Positions 27,715 to 34,883 of a stretch of 64,000 nt of DNA are shown in pieces (within the stretch, counting starts at the first letter, position 1; every line of letters starts with the position of its first letter). Position numbers and translations under genes: made by a program. The notes below the pieces were generated by a model. The model did no database searches. It was not told where the DNA came from and saw only the letters and a program-made list of their open reading frames with translations. Origin of the DNA: Proteocatella sphenisci DSM 23131 (lineage in GTDB: Bacteria > Bacillota > Clostridia > Peptostreptococcales > Filifactoraceae); the NCBI RefSeq assembly GCF_000423525.1, contig NZ_AUID01000001.1, forward strand, positions 1 through 64,000. The letters run 5' to 3'.

Positions 27715-27765
27715 ATCAAAAAAACACAAAAATGCTTAAAGATAGCAAATTTTGTGTTTTTGATT
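27715..27765. terminator. Bidirectional terminator between recombinase gene and nadE
   Basis: CACAAAA (27725-27731) pairs with TTTTGTG (27750-27756), continued inward by TGCT/AGCA with a small bulge and outward by A and T runs on both sides. It serves the plus-strand recombinase gene and the minus-strand nadE, which converge here. Confidence 0.75.
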
Positions 27766-27789: not shown

Positions 27790-28530
27790 CTAAAATAAAG
27801 GTGGATGAGGTGGAGATGTTCTCTTGTGCTCAGACCTGGCATTTAATCTTTCGATTACGACTTTATCTTCTTGAGGAATTTCTTTACCCTGAAGATACAT
27901 ATCTATATATTTATAGGTCGTGCCCATTTCTTTCTCGTCTGTCTGGCCTTCCCAAAGACCAGCAGTTGGAGCTTTTGCAAGTATATTTTCAGGAACGTTG
28001 AAATATCTCCCCCACTCATATACTTCGTTTTTTAAAAGATTGGCAAGAGGTAAAATATCGACTCCCCCATCACCATATTTTGTAAAGTATCCAGTTAACA
28101 ATTCCGCAGCATTGTCTGTTCCCACAACAAGATAATTAAGATTGTTAGCTATGGAATAAAGTGCTGTCATTCTCAGCCTTGCTCTCATATTCGCATCGAC
28201 AATTTTTTTATTTTCTTTAATAAAAAGTTCTTTCATCTCAGATTCAACTTTGTCTAATATTGATTCATTCTCATGAGAAAGATCAATTGTTAATTTTTTT
28301 ATGTCACACGATTCACAAAGCGCATTGGCATCCACCAGATCTTCCGAAGAATTGTGTATTGGAAGTATAACTCCCAGACAATTATCGGGTGAAGCCAATT
28401 TTATAAGATTTGCAACTACAGCAGAATCAATTCCTCCAGAAACCCCAACAAGTAAACCTTTGGTTTTTGTTTCTTTCATCTTATCTTTCAGCCAGTTTAC
28501 TGTACTTAAAATTTTCTCTTCAGTCGTCAT
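27790..28530 (-). CDS. nadE: NAD synthetase (ammonia-dependent type)
   Basis: Last step of NAD synthesis, amidating nicotinate adenine dinucleotide. The PP-loop SGGIDS is at residues 31-36; NMRARLRMTALY, VVGTDNAAELLTGYFTKYGDGG and LPLANLLKNEVYEW match the family. At 246 aa it has only the synthetase domain; the glutaminase domain of longer forms is absent. The C-terminal SEHKRTSPPHPPLF-type tail is typical. It is the last gene of the dnaG-rpoD run, 23 bases after yigZ. Confidence 0.96.
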   Translation of the reverse strand: MTTEEKILSTVNWLKDKMKETKTKGLLVGVSGGIDSAVVANLIKLASPDNCLGVILPIHNSSEDLVDANALCESCDIKKLTIDLSHENESILDKVESEMKELFIKENKKIVDANMRARLRMTALYSIANNLNYLVVGTDNAAELLTGYFTKYGDGGVDILPLANLLKNEVYEWGRYFNVPENILAKAPTAGLWEGQTDEKEMGTTYKYIDMYLQGKEIPQEDKVVIERLNARSEHKRTSPPHPPLF

Positions 28531-28553: not shown

Positions 28554-29192
28554 CTAATCTATTATTTTATCATTAAAAAACCTTACAAAAACATTGTCCA
28601 ATTCATCTATGTTAACTAAAGATGAAGTTATATCAACTAATTCATTTAATATCATTATTTCTTCTTCATTAATATACACCATGAATTTTACATTTTCAAG
28701 ATATTGTATATCTTTTACAATCACACCACTGTTTTTAAATCTGTGTTGTATTTTGGGTGCGATATCATAAGTACAAGTTATCAAGTAGCATTTCATTTGT
28801 CTGCATTCGATTATTTTGGAGGCTTCCATTCCCATTTTAGCAGATTCGGTATAGGCCCTTACCAGTCCTCCAGTACCAAGTTTTATGCCACCAAAATATC
28901 TGGTAATAACTATACAGATATCCGTCATTCCTTTTTTTAACATGACATCGAGTATTGGCATGCCAGCTGTTCCAGACGGTTCTCCATCATCTGAGTACCT
29001 CTTTATATCCGAGGCTTCTCCTACTACATAAGCGCTTACGTTATGAGACGCATTATAATTAAGCTTTTTAATCTTGGCAATGAAATCTATCGCTTCACTT
29101 TCTTCGTGTACAGGTTTTGTGTAAGAAATAAACCTCGATTTTTCAACTATATATTCCACTTGTGAATAATCTAATACTGAATAATAGTTCAA
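28554..29192 (-). CDS. yigZ: YigZ/IMPACT family protein (UPF0029)
   Basis: The conserved IMPACT N-terminal domain spans about residues 1-130: EYIVEKSRFISY, the SAYVVG strand, the family mark SDDGEPSGTAGMPIL and the TRYFGGIKLGTGGLVRAY block. A small C-terminal ferredoxin-like domain (DUF1949 type) completes 212 aa. The molecular role in bacteria is not established; eukaryotic IMPACT regulates Gcn2. Translation begins at TTG, supported by AAGGAAGG seven bases upstream. Four bases separate it from the HEAT-repeat gene. Confidence 0.9.
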   Translation of the reverse strand: MNYYSVLDYSQVEYIVEKSRFISYTKPVHEESEAIDFIAKIKKLNYNASHNVSAYVVGEASDIKRYSDDGEPSGTAGMPILDVMLKKGMTDICIVITRYFGGIKLGTGGLVRAYTESAKMGMEASKIIECRQMKCYLITCTYDIAPKIQHRFKNSGVIVKDIQYLENVKFMVYINEEEIMILNELVDITSSLVNIDELDNVFVRFFNDKIID

Positions 29193-29196
29193 TTTA

Positions 29197-29811
29197 TTAT
29201 CCTTCCTTTACTATTCTCAGAATAATATCTTTATTATATTCAACAGTTTCGCTCTTATACACTTTTCTCAAAAAATCTATTTTATCCTCTGTATTATATT
29301 TTGAAAAAGATTTGATTGCATAAGAACGAACCTGTGGCTTGTTATCTTTACATCCTTGTTTTAAATACGGAATAAATTCTTCATCATATATTTTACCCAT
29401 ACTGGAAAATGCCATTCTTTTAATATTACCATTATAGCTAAATGATAATTTTTTAAGGTAATCGTTGAATTTTTCAAGTTTTAACTCGCCAATTATCCAT
29501 ACAACCATAGACAAATCTTCTGCATTGTTTTTTTCATGATTTAAAAAAACTGAAATTTCATTTACGAGTTCTTTTTTAAAATCAAAAGTTATATTTTGAA
29601 GAAAATTGATTCTGTCTGCCTTTTCCATGAGTAACAGCTTTTTAAGCGTAGTATTGTTTTGAGGCTGCAGCTTTATATTTAAGCTTAAACTGAGCTTTGC
29701 ATCAATAATATGCTGCCTTACTTGATTTTCATCAATTTCAAGTATCTTAGATATTTCAGAAATATTTTTTCCGGCCTTATATAATTTATATGATTCTTCC
29801 TGATAGTTCAA
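29197..29811 (-). CDS. Unrecognised protein: HTH followed by HEAT-like helical repeats
   Basis: 204 aa. Residues 1-40 (YKLYKAGKNISEISKILEID, then ENQVRQHIIDA) look like the helix-turn-helix found at the C-terminus of some RecQ helicases. About residues 85-200 form paired helices of HEAT type (DLSMVVWIIGELK, IKRMAFSSMGKIYDEEFIPYL, PQVRSYAIKSFSKY). No catalytic motif or membrane segment is seen. It starts with TTG behind GGAG and lies between hflX and yigZ in the dnaG-rpoD run. A scaffold or DNA/RNA-binding adaptor is plausible, but I cannot assign a function. Confidence 0.75.
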   Translation of the reverse strand: MNYQEESYKLYKAGKNISEISKILEIDENQVRQHIIDAKLSLSLNIKLQPQNNTTLKKLLLMEKADRINFLQNITFDFKKELVNEISVFLNHEKNNAEDLSMVVWIIGELKLEKFNDYLKKLSFSYNGNIKRMAFSSMGKIYDEEFIPYLKQGCKDNKPQVRSYAIKSFSKYNTEDKIDFLRKVYKSETVEYNKDIILRIVKEG

Positions 29812-29824
29812 ATTATCAGTCTCC

Positions 29825-31120
29825 TTATATTAAAATATATTCATTATATTTTCTGATATCATCCTGGGTCAACTTTAAGGTTATGCTTATTCCATTTTCT
29901 TGGTATTCAGTTGCTACATTTGAATATTTATCGTGAATTTCATTTATAAGATTGCCTTCATTATATGGAATGAGCAAAGTTTTTTCTTCTATATCTGGTA
30001 TTATTGTTTCTTCTATCATATCTAATAATCTTTTTATATCGTCAGGATTATTTGCCGATATGTTAATGCTCTTTACCTCAGCGCTGCCTACAACAAAATC
30101 GCCAGATAGCAAATCTATTTTATTATTTACAATTATCTTTGCTTTGTCGGCGCATCCTATTTCTTTTAGCACATCTTCTGTAGTCTCTCTTTGCAGTTCA
30201 TAATTCTTATCCGATGCATCAAGAATATGAAGCACCAGGTCTGCAAACAATGCTTCTTCAAGTGTGGATTTGAAAGCTTTTACAAGAGAGTGAGGAAGTC
30301 TTGAAACAAATCCAACTGTATCTATAACTAAAAAATCATTTCCATTTGTAAACTTGGCTTTTCGAAGTGATGTGTCGAGTGTAGCAAAGAGCATATCTTT
30401 AACAAAAACTTCTTTTTCTGGATCATGTAGTTCATTTCGCTTTATTATTTCATTTGTAATTGTTGATTTGCCTGCATTTGTGTACCCAACTAAGGCAACG
30501 ATCGGTAAATTGGATTTCATTCTCTGGCTTCTTTGAACATCCCTGTTTTTAACTATTTCAGCAAGTTCTTTTTCTATTTCCAGTATTCTTGCATTTATGT
30601 GTCTTTTGTCTGTCTCAAGTTTTTTTTCACCAGGTCCTCTTCCGCCTATGCCGCCTCCCATTCTAGAGAGTTTTCCACCTATCCCAGCCAGCCTTGGGAG
30701 TCTGTATTTTAACTGAGCCAGCTCAACTTGAAGCTTTCCGTCTTTAGTGATAGCACGGTTAGCGAATATTTCCTGTATTAGCATGGTTCTGTCAATAACG
30801 TCTACATCTAAGGCATTCTCCAGGTTTCTTATCTGAGAACCTGATAGTTCATGGTTGAATATTACGAGATTTACATTCATATTCTCTGAATATGTTTTAA
30901 TCTCTTCTACTTTACCTTTTCCTATAAAATATGTTACGTCTACGCTTTGCTTGTTTTGGACCATATTTCCTAAGACTTCAACATTCGCGGCCAAAGCAAG
31001 TTCATTAAATTCAGTCATTGACGCTTCAATATCTTCAATATAATCCTTGCTTTTTTTGTCTGCAATGTTGAGTGTCACCAGTATAGCCTTGTAATCTATC
31101 TTTTCTGTTGTTTTTTCCAT
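29825..31120 (-). CDS. hflX: GTPase HflX
   Basis: Ribosome-associated GTPase that splits stalled or heat-damaged ribosomes. The N-terminal HflX domain ends in the glycine-rich signature LSRMGGGIGGRGPGE, followed by a coiled coil. The G domain has G1 GYTNAGKST (about residue 212 on), G3 DTVGFVSRLPH and G4 NKID. The short C-terminal domain gives 431 aa in total, standard length. Ten bases separate it from rpoD, so it is part of that operon; AAGGAA lies before the ATG. Confidence 0.95.
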   Translation of the reverse strand: MEKTTEKIDYKAILVTLNIADKKSKDYIEDIEASMTEFNELALAANVEVLGNMVQNKQSVDVTYFIGKGKVEEIKTYSENMNVNLVIFNHELSGSQIRNLENALDVDVIDRTMLIQEIFANRAITKDGKLQVELAQLKYRLPRLAGIGGKLSRMGGGIGGRGPGEKKLETDKRHINARILEIEKELAEIVKNRDVQRSQRMKSNLPIVALVGYTNAGKSTITNEIIKRNELHDPEKEVFVKDMLFATLDTSLRKAKFTNGNDFLVIDTVGFVSRLPHSLVKAFKSTLEEALFADLVLHILDASDKNYELQRETTEDVLKEIGCADKAKIIVNNKIDLLSGDFVVGSAEVKSINISANNPDDIKRLLDMIEETIIPDIEEKTLLIPYNEGNLINEIHDKYSNVATEYQENGISITLKLTQDDIRKYNEYILI

Positions 31121-31129
31121 AATTATTCC

Positions 31130-32260
31130 TTAATCTAAATAGTCTTTCAATTTTTTAGATCTGCTCGGATGTCTAAGTTTCCTGAGAGCTTTAGCTTCAA
31201 TCTGTCTTATTCTCTCTCTGGTTACTTCAAACTCTTTTCCTACTTCTTCAAGAGTTCTCGCTCTTCCGTCTTCCAAACCAAATCTTAACCTTAAAACTTT
31301 TTGTTCTCTCTCATTAAGAGAAGTTAACACCTCATCAAGCTGTTCTTTGAGAAGTGAATATGCTGCAGCCTCTGCGGGCGCAGGTGCATCTTCATCTGGT
31401 ATAAAATCTCCAAGATGACTGTCTTCTTCTTCTCCGATTGGAGTTTCCAAAGAAACGGGTTCTTGTGAAATTTTTTGAATTTCTCTTACTTTCTCAACTG
31501 GCATATCCATTTTCTTTGCAAGTTCTTCTGGACTTGGATCTCTTCCCAGCTCTTGCATCAATTGTCTGGAAATCCTTACAAGTTTATTTATTGTTTCGAC
31601 CATATGAACCGGAATCCTAATAGTCCTCGCCTGGTCAGCTATTGCTCTTGTTATAGCCTGCCTGATCCACCATGTCGCATAAGTTGAAAATTTAAATCCT
31701 TTTTTATAATCAAATTTGTCAACTGCTTTAATAAGTCCAAGATTACCTTCTTGAATCAAATCAAGAAATAGCATTCCCCTTCCAACATATCTTTTTGCTA
31801 TAGAAACTACAAGTCTTAGGTTAGCCTCAACAAGTAAAGACTTTACTGAATCATCACCTTCATCCATTCTTTGAGCAAGACTTGACTCTTCTTCTGGGGA
31901 AAGCAGAGGTATTCTTCCTATTTCCTTAAGATACATCCTGACTGGATCATCTATAGACACTCCTTTTGGTGCAGACAAATCTAAAGCCTCTGCTTTGACT
32001 TCTTCGGCTATTACATTTTCTTTCTCATAGTCTATATCTTCAATCAAATCCAGCTGATTCTCTTTGTTCTCCTCATCTACTACCTCTATACCCAGTTGAC
32101 TAAGGGTCTCATAGGTATTTTCAATTACATCTTTATCCATATCAAACGTGGATAGAGCTTCAGTAATTTCTGAAAAAGTAAGTGTTCCTGTTTCTTTTCC
32201 TTTTTCAAGCAAATTTTTGATCGTTGTAGCTTCAGAAGCCCTGTTTTCATTATTTTCCAT
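31130..32260 (-). CDS. rpoD: Primary sigma factor RpoD (SigA)
   Basis: Housekeeping sigma factor. Region 1.1 covers about residues 1-60; region 1.2 is [16 protein letters not shown]; region 2 holds [37 protein letters not shown] and [14 protein letters not shown], which read the -10 element; region 3 contains [14 protein letters not shown]; region 4.2 is [20 protein letters not shown], the -35 reader. The ATG at 32260 (376 aa) is chosen because GGAGAG is five bases upstream; the in-frame TTG at 32263 is too close. dnaG lies immediately upstream, the conserved macromolecular-synthesis arrangement. Confidence 0.98.
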
Positions 32261-32292
32261 CAATACTCTCCTAATTAGTAGTTACTTTAAGT

Positions 32293-34020
32293 TTATTTAT
32301 TAATTTTTTTGTTATTCAGATTTATTATATGTTGTCCTATAGTTAAAGCCAGGTCTAAAGTAGACTCATCTATCGATTCCAAAAGTCTAAGCTGTATTTC
32401 TTCAAATTTATTTATCTGTTTGTCCAGCGATATATTTCTCATGTTTTTTTTCAAAATATACATTTCTTCAGACTCTATCTTTGAATAATACTCTTTTAAG
32501 TGATCAGTTTCCTTTGAATTCTTGTGGAATATATTAGCATAAATCATCCGGTTTTCTCTTGTACTGAAATCATTGATTGAAAAATACTCTAACTCTATAT
32601 TACCCATTATTATATTAGCTAAAATCATTTTTTCTTTTTTATCTATTTCAAACTCGTCAAAATACATTACCTTATTTAAGTCGGAACGAGATGGTTTTCT
32701 CTCAATCTCATCATTTTTGCTAAACTGTTTAATGCTGAAATACTTTCCAAATATGTCCTGGCCAATAGCTTTAATAGAGTATCCACTCTCAGTTGCAAGA
32801 AAGTAAATTGCATTTTCTACAAAGATATGACTGGAATTATATTTATTTAAATATTTTTTAATAAATTCTACGGATTCTTTTAAAAAATCTATCTTTTGTG
32901 ATTCCAGGTCTGTTTTATATTTATTTTTTATGTTTTTAATATTAAAAATCAAATAGTCATCAGCTTTATCAAGTAGTTTTTCAAATGAAACATTTCCAAA
33001 TTTAGAAAGAAATTCATCTGGATCTTTCGCCTCTAATATAGACACTACCTTGACTTCCAGGCCTTCTTGTAAAGCTATTTCCAGCGCTCTCAGGCTCGCC
33101 TGAATCCCAGCATTGTCTGAATCATATATTATATATAGTTTATCTGCTGTTTTCTTAATCAATTTTGCCTGCTCTATAGTAAGAGAGGTTCCCAGTGATG
33201 CAACCGTATTTTTATATCCAAACTGATGCATCTTTATTACATCCATATACCCTTCTACAAGAAATATACTTTTGTTTATCAAATTTTTCTTTGCAATATG
33301 GAACCCATAAAGATTGTCTTTTTTTAAAAATATTTTTGTCTCAGGCGAATTTAGATATTTGGGACCATAATCATCCATCTGCCTTCCCCCAAAAGCAATT
33401 ACTTTATTTCTTGAATCAAAAATAGGAAACATTATTCTATTTCGGAATCTTGAATATATCTTTTCGTTTTTTTGTACAAACACCCCACTTCCAATTAAAC
33501 TTTCTGTTGGAAATGTCTTTTTTAGCATGTTTAATAAGTCAAAGCTGTTATCTGCGTAGCCTATTCCAAATTCTTTTATCATTTCCGGAAGTATGCCTCT
33601 GTTTTTCAGATAATCTATTGCAGTAGGTGTGTTTATAAGATTTTTATAAAAAAACCGTGCTGATTCAGTATTTATTTCTTTTAACTCGGCATTGGCCTTT
33701 TCATAAGTCGAATAACCTTCCTTATTGTTTTGTGGCAATTCAATGTTTAACTTTTCAGCAAGAATCTTTAATGCTTCTATAAAGTCCACATTCTCAATTT
33801 CTTCTATAAATTTTATTACATCTCCACTCTTCCCGCATCCAAAACATTTGAAAATTTGTTTATTTTCACTTACAACAAAAGATGGAGTATTTTCATTATG
33901 AAATGGACAACATGATTTGTAATTTGAACCATTGTTTTTAAGATCTACATAATTAGAAATTATATCCACTATGTTAGCTTTATCCTTTACTTCATTAATA
34001 AAGTTATTATCTATACTCAT
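32293..34020 (-). CDS. dnaG: DNA primase
   Basis: Makes RNA primers for replication. The N-terminal CHC2 zinc finger is complete (CCPFHNENTPSF...FKCFGCGKSGD, about residues 35-65). The catalytic core has the RNAP-like basic block (YSRFRNRIMFPIFD) and a TOPRIM fold (IFLVEGYMDVIKMHQ, YIIYDSDNAGIQAS). The C-terminal DnaB-binding region is poorly conserved, as usual. The ATG at 34020 (575 aa, MSIDNNFINEV) fits the family start and lies about 24 bases after the predicted transcription start; the ATG at 34035 would leave almost no leader. Confidence 0.96.
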   Translation of the reverse strand: MSIDNNFINEVKDKANIVDIISNYVDLKNNGSNYKSCCPFHNENTPSFVVSENKQIFKCFGCGKSGDVIKFIEEIENVDFIEALKILAEKLNIELPQNNKEGYSTYEKANAELKEINTESARFFYKNLINTPTAIDYLKNRGILPEMIKEFGIGYADNSFDLLNMLKKTFPTESLIGSGVFVQKNEKIYSRFRNRIMFPIFDSRNKVIAFGGRQMDDYGPKYLNSPETKIFLKKDNLYGFHIAKKNLINKSIFLVEGYMDVIKMHQFGYKNTVASLGTSLTIEQAKLIKKTADKLYIIYDSDNAGIQASLRALEIALQEGLEVKVVSILEAKDPDEFLSKFGNVSFEKLLDKADDYLIFNIKNIKNKYKTDLESQKIDFLKESVEFIKKYLNKYNSSHIFVENAIYFLATESGYSIKAIGQDIFGKYFSIKQFSKNDEIERKPSRSDLNKVMYFDEFEIDKKEKMILANIIMGNIELEYFSINDFSTRENRMIYANIFHKNSKETDHLKEYYSKIESEEMYILKKNMRNISLDKQINKFEEIQLRLLESIDESTLDLALTIGQHIINLNNKKINK

Positions 34021-34050
34021 TTTCTCTCCATTCATTGCCTCAACTATACA

Positions 34051-34075
34051 ATTCTACAACAGCAGGGATTTTCCT
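34051..34075 (-). promoter_or_regulatory. Candidate sigma-H-type promoter of dnaG-rpoD
   Basis: Read on the minus strand, AGGAAAA (34069-34075), an 11-base gap and GTAGAAT (34051-34057) match the sigma-H pattern AGGAWWW-N11-RnnGAAT. The predicted start is near 34044, giving a leader of about 24 bases to the dnaG ATG. A TATAGT at 34043-34048 could be a sigma-A -10, but no fitting -35 is present. In Bacillus subtilis the sigA operon has a sigma-H promoter, which makes this plausible. It is pattern matching only. Confidence 0.5.
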
Positions 34076-34095
34076 TCTGAATTTACAAAAAAAAT

Positions 34096-34125
34096 AAAAA
34101 TTTAAAGGAAAGCCTTTAAATTTTT
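34096..34125 (-). terminator. Terminator of the DAHP synthase operon
   Basis: AAAAATTTAAAGG (34096-34108) pairs with CCTTTAAATTTTT (34113-34125) as a perfect 13-bp stem; on the minus strand it is followed by TATTTTTTTT. The DAHP synthase stop codon is inside the stem. Confidence 0.85.
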
Positions 34126-34883
34126 TTCATAAGTTGTTTGAAATCAGAAAAATCTATAGTCTGTTCTTTATCTGAAAGAGCTTCTTCTGGTTTTTTATGA
34201 ACTTCTACAATTATTCCATCAGCACCTGCCGCCAGCGATGCACATGACATGGGTATAACGAGGTCTCTAATCCCAGTTCCATGGCTTGGGTCGGCAATCA
34301 CAGTAAGTCCTGTTTCTTTTTTTATAATTGGAATTGCAGCTATATCCATTGTATTGCGTGTATAATCATTAAATGTTCTAATTCCTCTTTCACACATTAT
34401 GATGTCAGAGTTTCCTGATTCGTATATATATTCTGCCGCTCTTATCCATTCATATATGGTTGCTGCCATTCCTCTTTTAAGGAGTACTGGTTTCCCATAT
34501 TTTCCTGCTTCTCGCAAAAGCGTAAAATTTTGCATGTTTCTTGAACCTATTTGAATTATATCACTGACTTGTGCTACACTCTCAAGAGACTCCGTATCTA
34601 CAGCTTCTGTGACAACTTTTATTCCTACATTTTCTCTGACTCTTTTAAGAATTTGAAGTCCTTCGTATTTTAAACCCTGAAAGTCTCTGTTTGAAGTCCG
34701 AGGTTTATAAGCCCCGCCTCTCAATACGGTAGCCCCATTATTTTTAACAAATTCAGCTATTTCTAACAACTGCTCCTCAGACTCTATTGAACATGGTCCA
34801 GCAATTATTATCTTATTTTTTTCTTTATTATAAAGATCATCTAATCGATTAATCTTCAATTTTTTAAAATCATTTTTAATCAT
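34116..34883 (-). CDS. aroF: 3-deoxy-7-phosphoheptulonate (DAHP) synthase, type I-beta
   Basis: First step of the shikimate pathway: PEP plus erythrose 4-phosphate. Family blocks are [47 protein letters not shown] and [14 protein letters not shown] with [19 protein letters not shown]. At 255 aa it is the bare barrel, without the N-terminal ferredoxin-like/ACT regulatory domain or the chorismate mutase domain found in many relatives. The gene just upstream encodes a free ACT protein, which may supply feedback control; that is inference. KDO8P synthase is a related alternative, but the I-beta motifs favour DAHP. Confidence 0.93.

Follow-up and report, generated by a model that had tools for sequence, protein, structure and literature searches.

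A 27-base element in front of dnaG in Proteocatella sphenisci DSM 23131 is very probably a promoter that would be read by the SigH form of RNA polymerase, driving the genes for DNA primase (dnaG) and the housekeeping sigma factor (rpoD), together with several genes further downstream by read-through. The element lies in the 64,000-nucleotide stretch of contig NZ_AUID01000001.1 that was analyzed here, hereafter called the window. It corresponds closely to promoters that SigH is reported to use in other Firmicutes, and its presence before dnaG across the order Peptostreptococcales is associated with the presence of sigH.

The element is located within the 95 bases that separate aroF from dnaG, where the minus strand reads GAAGGAAAA-N11-GTAGAAT from 34077 to 34051. 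A preliminary description of this DNA had noted AGGAAAA-N11-GTAGAAT on that strand (34075-34069 and 34057-34051) as sigma-H-like, and the match to AGGAWWW-N11-RNNGAAT was confirmed to be exact. To score such sites, a sigma-H two-box matrix with spacing was built from 38 of the 40 C. difficile SigH promoters tabulated in Table 3 of PMC7438776, two rows marked as low-score having been dropped; because dnaG is absent from the promoters of that table, the matrix is independent of the dnaG finding. The dnaG leader site attains 20.2 bits with this matrix, the top value among 119 dnaG leaders scored, and the second-best site on either strand of the window reaches 16.0 bits. In 5000 dinucleotide-shuffled versions of the 340-base leader, 20.2 bits was never attained (best shuffle, 19.5), and base composition predicts about 0.00017 exact matches on one strand of a 60-base leader. 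For the 2.41-Mb genome as a whole, about 13 exact matches at one spacer length are expected by chance, and the position of the site therefore counts for more than the match alone.

In the entire genome, AGGAWWW-N10-12-RNNGAAT occurs 62 times, versus 40 for the reversed pattern, and nearly all of the occurrences fall inside ORFs; the consensus thus shows no strong global excess, and its count is by itself uninformative about function. The dnaG site scores highest among these 62 strict matches. A GAAA variant of the consensus yields 85 matches versus 40, and among the 62 strict matches and the best-scoring 40 of the 85 variants, which were placed relative to crude ORF calls, only the dnaG site is positioned as a promoter. 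Likewise, 53 of the 60 distinct sites of at least 13 bits, found in approximately 346 kb scanned (overlaps counted), are inside ORFs. Seven other intergenic-looking matches were set aside. At L060, L059, and L067 the match overlaps both a ribosome-binding site and a start codon, and the same was judged for L246 and L251 on the basis of the site string; the L238 match falls where one gene ends against a convergent neighbor; and one match at L205 is just 2 bases away from the start of an ORF. Upstream of the genome's own spoVG, a gene reported as a SigH target in C. difficile (PMC7438776), no SigH-type site above 12 bits was found, and the best SigH-type matches in the flanks of the type II/IV secretion-pilus ATPase genes likewise do not exceed 12 bits. 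The notion that the dnaG site is itself a chance match in an A-rich leader draws on the number of exact matches expected genome-wide and on the 62 that were found, nearly all within ORFs or overlapping a ribosome-binding site; set against the shuffled leaders, the minute expectation for so short a leader, and the recurrence of the site before dnaG within the family and across the order, its probability is practically negligible, and conservation already contradicts it.

The surroundings of the element are consistent with a promoter for a multigene transcript (Table 1). A predicted terminator, seen by folding and not listed by a simple terminator scan, separates the upstream gene aroF from dnaG. 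The 24-base leader earlier proposed for dnaG holds if translation starts at ATG 34020, which is preceded by GGAG at 34029-34026, and fails if it starts at the upstream in-frame ATG 34035, where the longest dnaG open frame begins; the DnaG N-termini of the relatives G002 (MDNEF..), G005 (MSMIDDNF..), and G008 (MSNIDDNF..) favor the former. Because successive genes are separated by just 29, 9, 13, 4, and 23 bases, with a predicted terminator behind nadE, a single transcript covering dnaG-rpoD-hflX-HEAT-yigZ-nadE is likely; it is from these short gaps (4-29 bases) and this terminator that hflX and nadE would appear to be co-transcribed with dnaG. The presumed operon also includes, between hflX and yigZ, a gene for a 204-residue HEAT-repeat protein, which has a weak N-terminal helix-turn-helix match (PF14493, 25.5 bits, below the cut-off of 27) and no NCBIfam match above cut-off.

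Table 1. Predicted features of the dnaG promoter region and the presumed operon, in window positions.
Feature	Position	Strand	Basis
Predicted intrinsic terminator of aroF	34087..34125	-	13-pair stem, T-rich tail; -10.1 kcal/mol, z -3.6
-35 element GAAGGAAAA	34069..34077	-	Core AGGAAAA 34075-34069; sequence and matrix score
-10 element GTAGAAT	34051..34057	-	11 bases past -35 element; sequence and matrix score
Predicted transcription start region	34040..34046	-	Inferred from distance to -10 element
Ribosome-binding site GGAGAG for dnaG ATG 34020	34024..34029	-	Sequence
dnaG, DNA primase, first gene behind promoter	32293..34020	-	TIGR01391, 448 bits, cut-off 283.6
rpoD (sigA), housekeeping sigma factor	31130..32263	-	NF006666, 628.8 bits, cut-off 572; 29-base gap to dnaG
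hflX, GTPase, probably same transcript	29825..31120	-	TIGR03156, 430.3 bits, cut-off 216.75; 9-base gap
HEAT-repeat protein gene, 204 residues, probably same transcript	29197..29811	-	PF13646, 47 bits, cut-off 27.7; 13-base gap
YigZ/IMPACT family gene, probably same transcript	28554..29192	-	TIGR00257, 182.7 bits, cut-off 167.95; 4-base gap
nadE, NAD synthase, probable last gene of transcript	27790..28530	-	TIGR00552, 254.1 bits, cut-off 63.65; 23-base gap
Predicted terminator after nadE	27718..27761	-	-14.1 kcal/mol, z -4.3, T-run

Conservation of the site was followed in 118 genomes of the order with at least 90% completeness, in which dnaG was found in 116 and sigH in 103. The addition of G004, G006, and G047 gave 119 scored leaders, 105 from sigH-positive genomes (own genome included) and 14 from sigH-negative ones. 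Leaders were left out for G050 and G094 (no dnaG match), for G039 (dnaG match present), and for G001, G009, G028, G054, and G055 (no or only fragmentary dnaG matches); in the assembly of G001, which belongs to the same genus as the host, dnaG was not found and an aroF relative was. SigH labels were assigned by a profile search at E 1e-20, with those of G004 and G047 taken from a separate profile search, and assembly gaps can produce false sigH minuses. No sigH was found in the 84% complete assembly of G006, which was counted as negative. For each leader, only the highest-scoring site was taken into account.

A site of at least 14 bits precedes dnaG in 90 of the 105 sigH-positive genomes versus 2 of the 14 sigH-negative ones (Fisher p 1.3e-7), and the median best leader score is 17.8 bits in the former versus 5.4 in the latter. 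Both boxes are thus conserved in relatives, and the separation holds across thresholds (sigH-positive/sigH-negative: 95/3 at 12 bits, 72/1 at 16 bits, and 48/0 at 18 bits). At 14 bits, controls gave sites in 1.4% of shuffled leaders and in 0 of 119 on the opposite strand. Permuting the sigH label within families returned p ~1e-4, and with one vote per genus and sigH state the site was found in 54 of 66 versus 2 of 10 (p 2e-4). In the window's own family, all five sigH-positive genomes have the site versus none of four sigH-negative ones, and it recurs before dnaG in the relatives G002, G004, G005, and G008. Conservation extends to the individual bases: in the remaining 89 sites that reach 14 bits, the -35 box contains AGG in 89 and A as the next base in 83, the -10 box contains GAA in 88 and a final T in 58, and the spacer measures 11 bases in 74 and 12 bases in 15.

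Genera of mixed sigH state offer a closer comparison, and in two of three the member lacking sigH scores lowest: G006 has 4.3 bits versus 17.7 in G002, and G077 has 7.7 bits versus 19.1, 12.4, and 11.2 in its congeners. The third genus is reversed, with 15.3 bits in G032, for which no sigH was found, versus 12.1 in the sigH-bearing G021, its sole congener in the set; the G032 assembly is fragmented (370 contigs, 90% complete). Fifteen of the 105 sigH-positive genomes fall below 14 bits, and by eye several of these carry near-consensus variants with a GAAC ending or AGGAG. A separate case is G089, an assembly rated 100% complete in which no sigH was detected and a 17.8-bit site precedes dnaG (leader L126); recent loss of sigH or the use of another sigma factor is possible there. 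In addition, four leaders (L017, L018, L020, and L024) each appear by eye to have two SigH-like sites, the far one ending in GTCGAAT or GTCGAAC and the nearer one having GAAA, GAAG, or GAAT.

A relic, or a conserved site bound by another factor, could resemble a sigma-H promoter and be lost together with sigH in reduced genomes. Consistent with this, 12 of 15 sigH-less genomes are small (1.5-2.2 Mb), such that co-loss could reflect general reduction, and the host clade's SigH has a diverged helix for reading the -35 box, as described below. Small sigH-positive genomes can, however, retain the site (e.g., G048 and G068, 1.7-1.9 Mb, with 17.7 and 19.1 bits), and the spacing and both boxes fit a SigH matrix derived from other genes. 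This explanation is accordingly held to be highly improbable, and recognition by SigH is preferred.

The sigH gene whose presence the preliminary description had called for is indeed in the genome, at C22:432-998 (L001), where it adjoins yacP (PF05991, 161 bits) and rlmB (TIGR00186, 260.5 bits) in the order rlmB-yacP-sigH; rlmB, named by eye, is also found in the sigH loci of the three relatives viewed (L084, L090, and L093). The five best NCBIfam matches of the encoded protein are all SigH-type models, all below their curated cut-offs (e.g., 184.6 bits versus a cut-off of 294.8, and 192.3 versus 212). An alignment to 12 high-scoring SigH proteins from the order showed the segment around CITRQI.TA.K...RQKHIPLN, which we take to be region 2.3-2.4, reading the -10 box, to be nearly intact. 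The C-terminal helix, presumably region 4.2, reading the -35 box, has ISDKGISSTLQRAKKKL where SigH proteins of the order have RHVKSIDNALQRVKRKL; the change is shared with the congener G001, and related changes are present in G002 and G009. Such divergence could alter reading of the -35 box, and it constitutes the main sequence-level doubt about a sigma-H promoter. In this clade, then, the -35-reading helix of SigH has diverged, yet its putative dnaG target retains a perfect -35 box. SigH-like factors are reported to diverge more in non-sporulating bacteria (PMC3364868).

Control of dnaG-rpoD by sigma-H is already known from B. subtilis and Listeria. In the yqxD-dnaG-sigA operon of B. subtilis, two of the seven promoters are reported to be sigma-H-dependent (PMC2824700). 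There, as would be the case here, a sigma-H promoter feeds dnaG and the housekeeping sigma gene, although B. subtilis is a spore former whose operon begins with yqxD and has two sigma-A promoters, whereas in P. sphenisci dnaG comes first, one recognizable promoter occupies the leader, and no Spo0A was found (see below). Listeria offers a non-sporulating host with a sigma-H promoter before dnaG-rpoD. Its LMRG_00908-dnaG-rpoD operon was raised upon SigH overexpression and has a sigma-H promoter with GAAGGACTT and GGCGAAT or GTCGAAT boxes; it is described as one of two sigma-H promoters in all five species and as the sole one termed highly conserved (PMC4754846). Listeria differs in belonging to the Bacilli, in having an extra first gene with the promoter 151 bases upstream of LMRG_00908, and in a SigH that also drives com genes. 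A search of open-licence PMC papers found no record of order-wide conservation of this promoter across Clostridia, of its co-loss with sigH, or of its retention without Spo0A, and the evolutionary pattern described here is broader than the one found in print in those papers.

Within the same order, the reported C. difficile SigH regulon has the same boxes and spacing, and it includes a SigH-driven sigA2 (PMC7438776). The core of the C. difficile spo0A sigma-H promoter is found letter for letter in four of nine genomes tested, all of the genus g41, and the six g41 genomes have GAAGGATAT-N11-GTCGAATT before dnaG. The C. difficile genus differs from P. sphenisci in that a sigma-A-like TTGACA-16-TAGAAT lies downstream of the SigH-like site before dnaG, which fits the assignment of an earlier-mapped C. 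difficile dnaG start to SigA; later 5'-end RNA-seq, as reported, did not map the dnaG start (PMC7438776). Together with the absence of dnaG from the tabulated SigH promoters, these reports weigh against the sigma-H reading, as does the spoVG result above.

This precedent lends something to the view that the P. sphenisci element is instead a weak sigma-A promoter, in which TAGAAT or TATAGT would act as the -10 box with a poor -35 box and the AGGA would be incidental. TAGAAT is a fair -10 box, and some supply of sigma-A is needed in exponential growth. Against this, and in agreement with the original reading that no good sigma-A -35 box is visible, positions 34020-34180 contain no sigma-70/sigma-A-type pair of at least 9/12 with boxes 16-18 bases apart; AGG is invariant in the other sites; the presence of the site tracks sigH; and a sigma-A-like 10/12 site at or downstream of the SigH-type site is found in only 22 of the 90 sigH-positive genomes that have the latter. 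A sigma-A promoter of this sort is therefore considered improbable.

The preliminary description further suggested a tie to stationary phase or to the onset of sporulation, and for the latter the evidence gives no support. The host assembly, which is 98.68% complete, yields 18 Spo0A matches, none above the 200-bit cut-off, and the best of them (E 5.5e-20) is in the range of receiver-only matches in other genomes; G008, of the same family, has a Spo0A above cut-off (E 2.4e-74). The SigH profile, a weak detector of sporulation sigma factors, picks out SigH, RpoD, and FliA alone in the host genome, versus 7-11 matches in many Spo0A-bearing relatives; because several other Spo0A-bearing relatives (G008, G011, and the f7 genomes among them) show just 2-4, this profile count does not prove absence of SigE, SigF, SigG, and SigK. 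Spo0A was cross-tabulated for 52 of 59 genomes, those with a scored dnaG leader, and G038, in which spo0A is split between contigs, was counted as positive. Of the genomes with both SigH and Spo0A, 23 of 24 have the site; it is present in 18 of 20 with SigH and no Spo0A, and in 1 of 8 with neither. The dnaG site thus tracks SigH and not Spo0A, and of the original reading, the sigma-H part is well supported, whereas the sporulation part lacks support.

Taken as a whole, these observations suggest a scheme in which SigH-polymerase reads the 27-base element between the aroF terminator and dnaG, and the promoter drives dnaG-rpoD and, by read-through, hflX, the HEAT-repeat gene, yigZ, and nadE. The sequence match, its conservation, and its association with sigH are observed directly, whereas binding by SigH, the start site, the extent of the transcript, and the physiological signal to which the operon would respond are inferred. 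With the housekeeping sigma factor encoded by rpoD in second position, active SigH would be expected to provide a supply of sigma-A as well as of primase. Transcription of dnaG in exponential phase might then come from a poor sigma-A promoter, from read-through, or from SigH itself. The element would appear to be old: the majority of genomes in the order that carry sigH have it, it is independent of Spo0A, and where sigH is absent it is mostly absent as well.

Accounts of SigH usually present it as a factor of transition phase and sporulation. It is tempting to go further and propose that, in a lineage without Spo0A, SigH has been retained chiefly to make sigma-A and primase, that its holoenzyme is the principal, perhaps the sole, means by which a promoter for dnaG-rpoD is recognized, and that sigma-A is thereby placed under an alternative sigma factor that growth may require. 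On this view that role, rather than sporulation, would be the original and longest-lasting function of SigH in the order. This bolder proposal is speculative and, on balance, unlikely. Nevertheless, if the dnaG-rpoD promoter is among the most durable targets of SigH, surviving the loss of Spo0A and absent where sigH is absent, this would help to explain why sigH is retained in many Clostridia that lack Spo0A, and the dnaG leader would serve to mark a functional SigH even in genomes whose SigH protein scores below the curated profile cut-offs.
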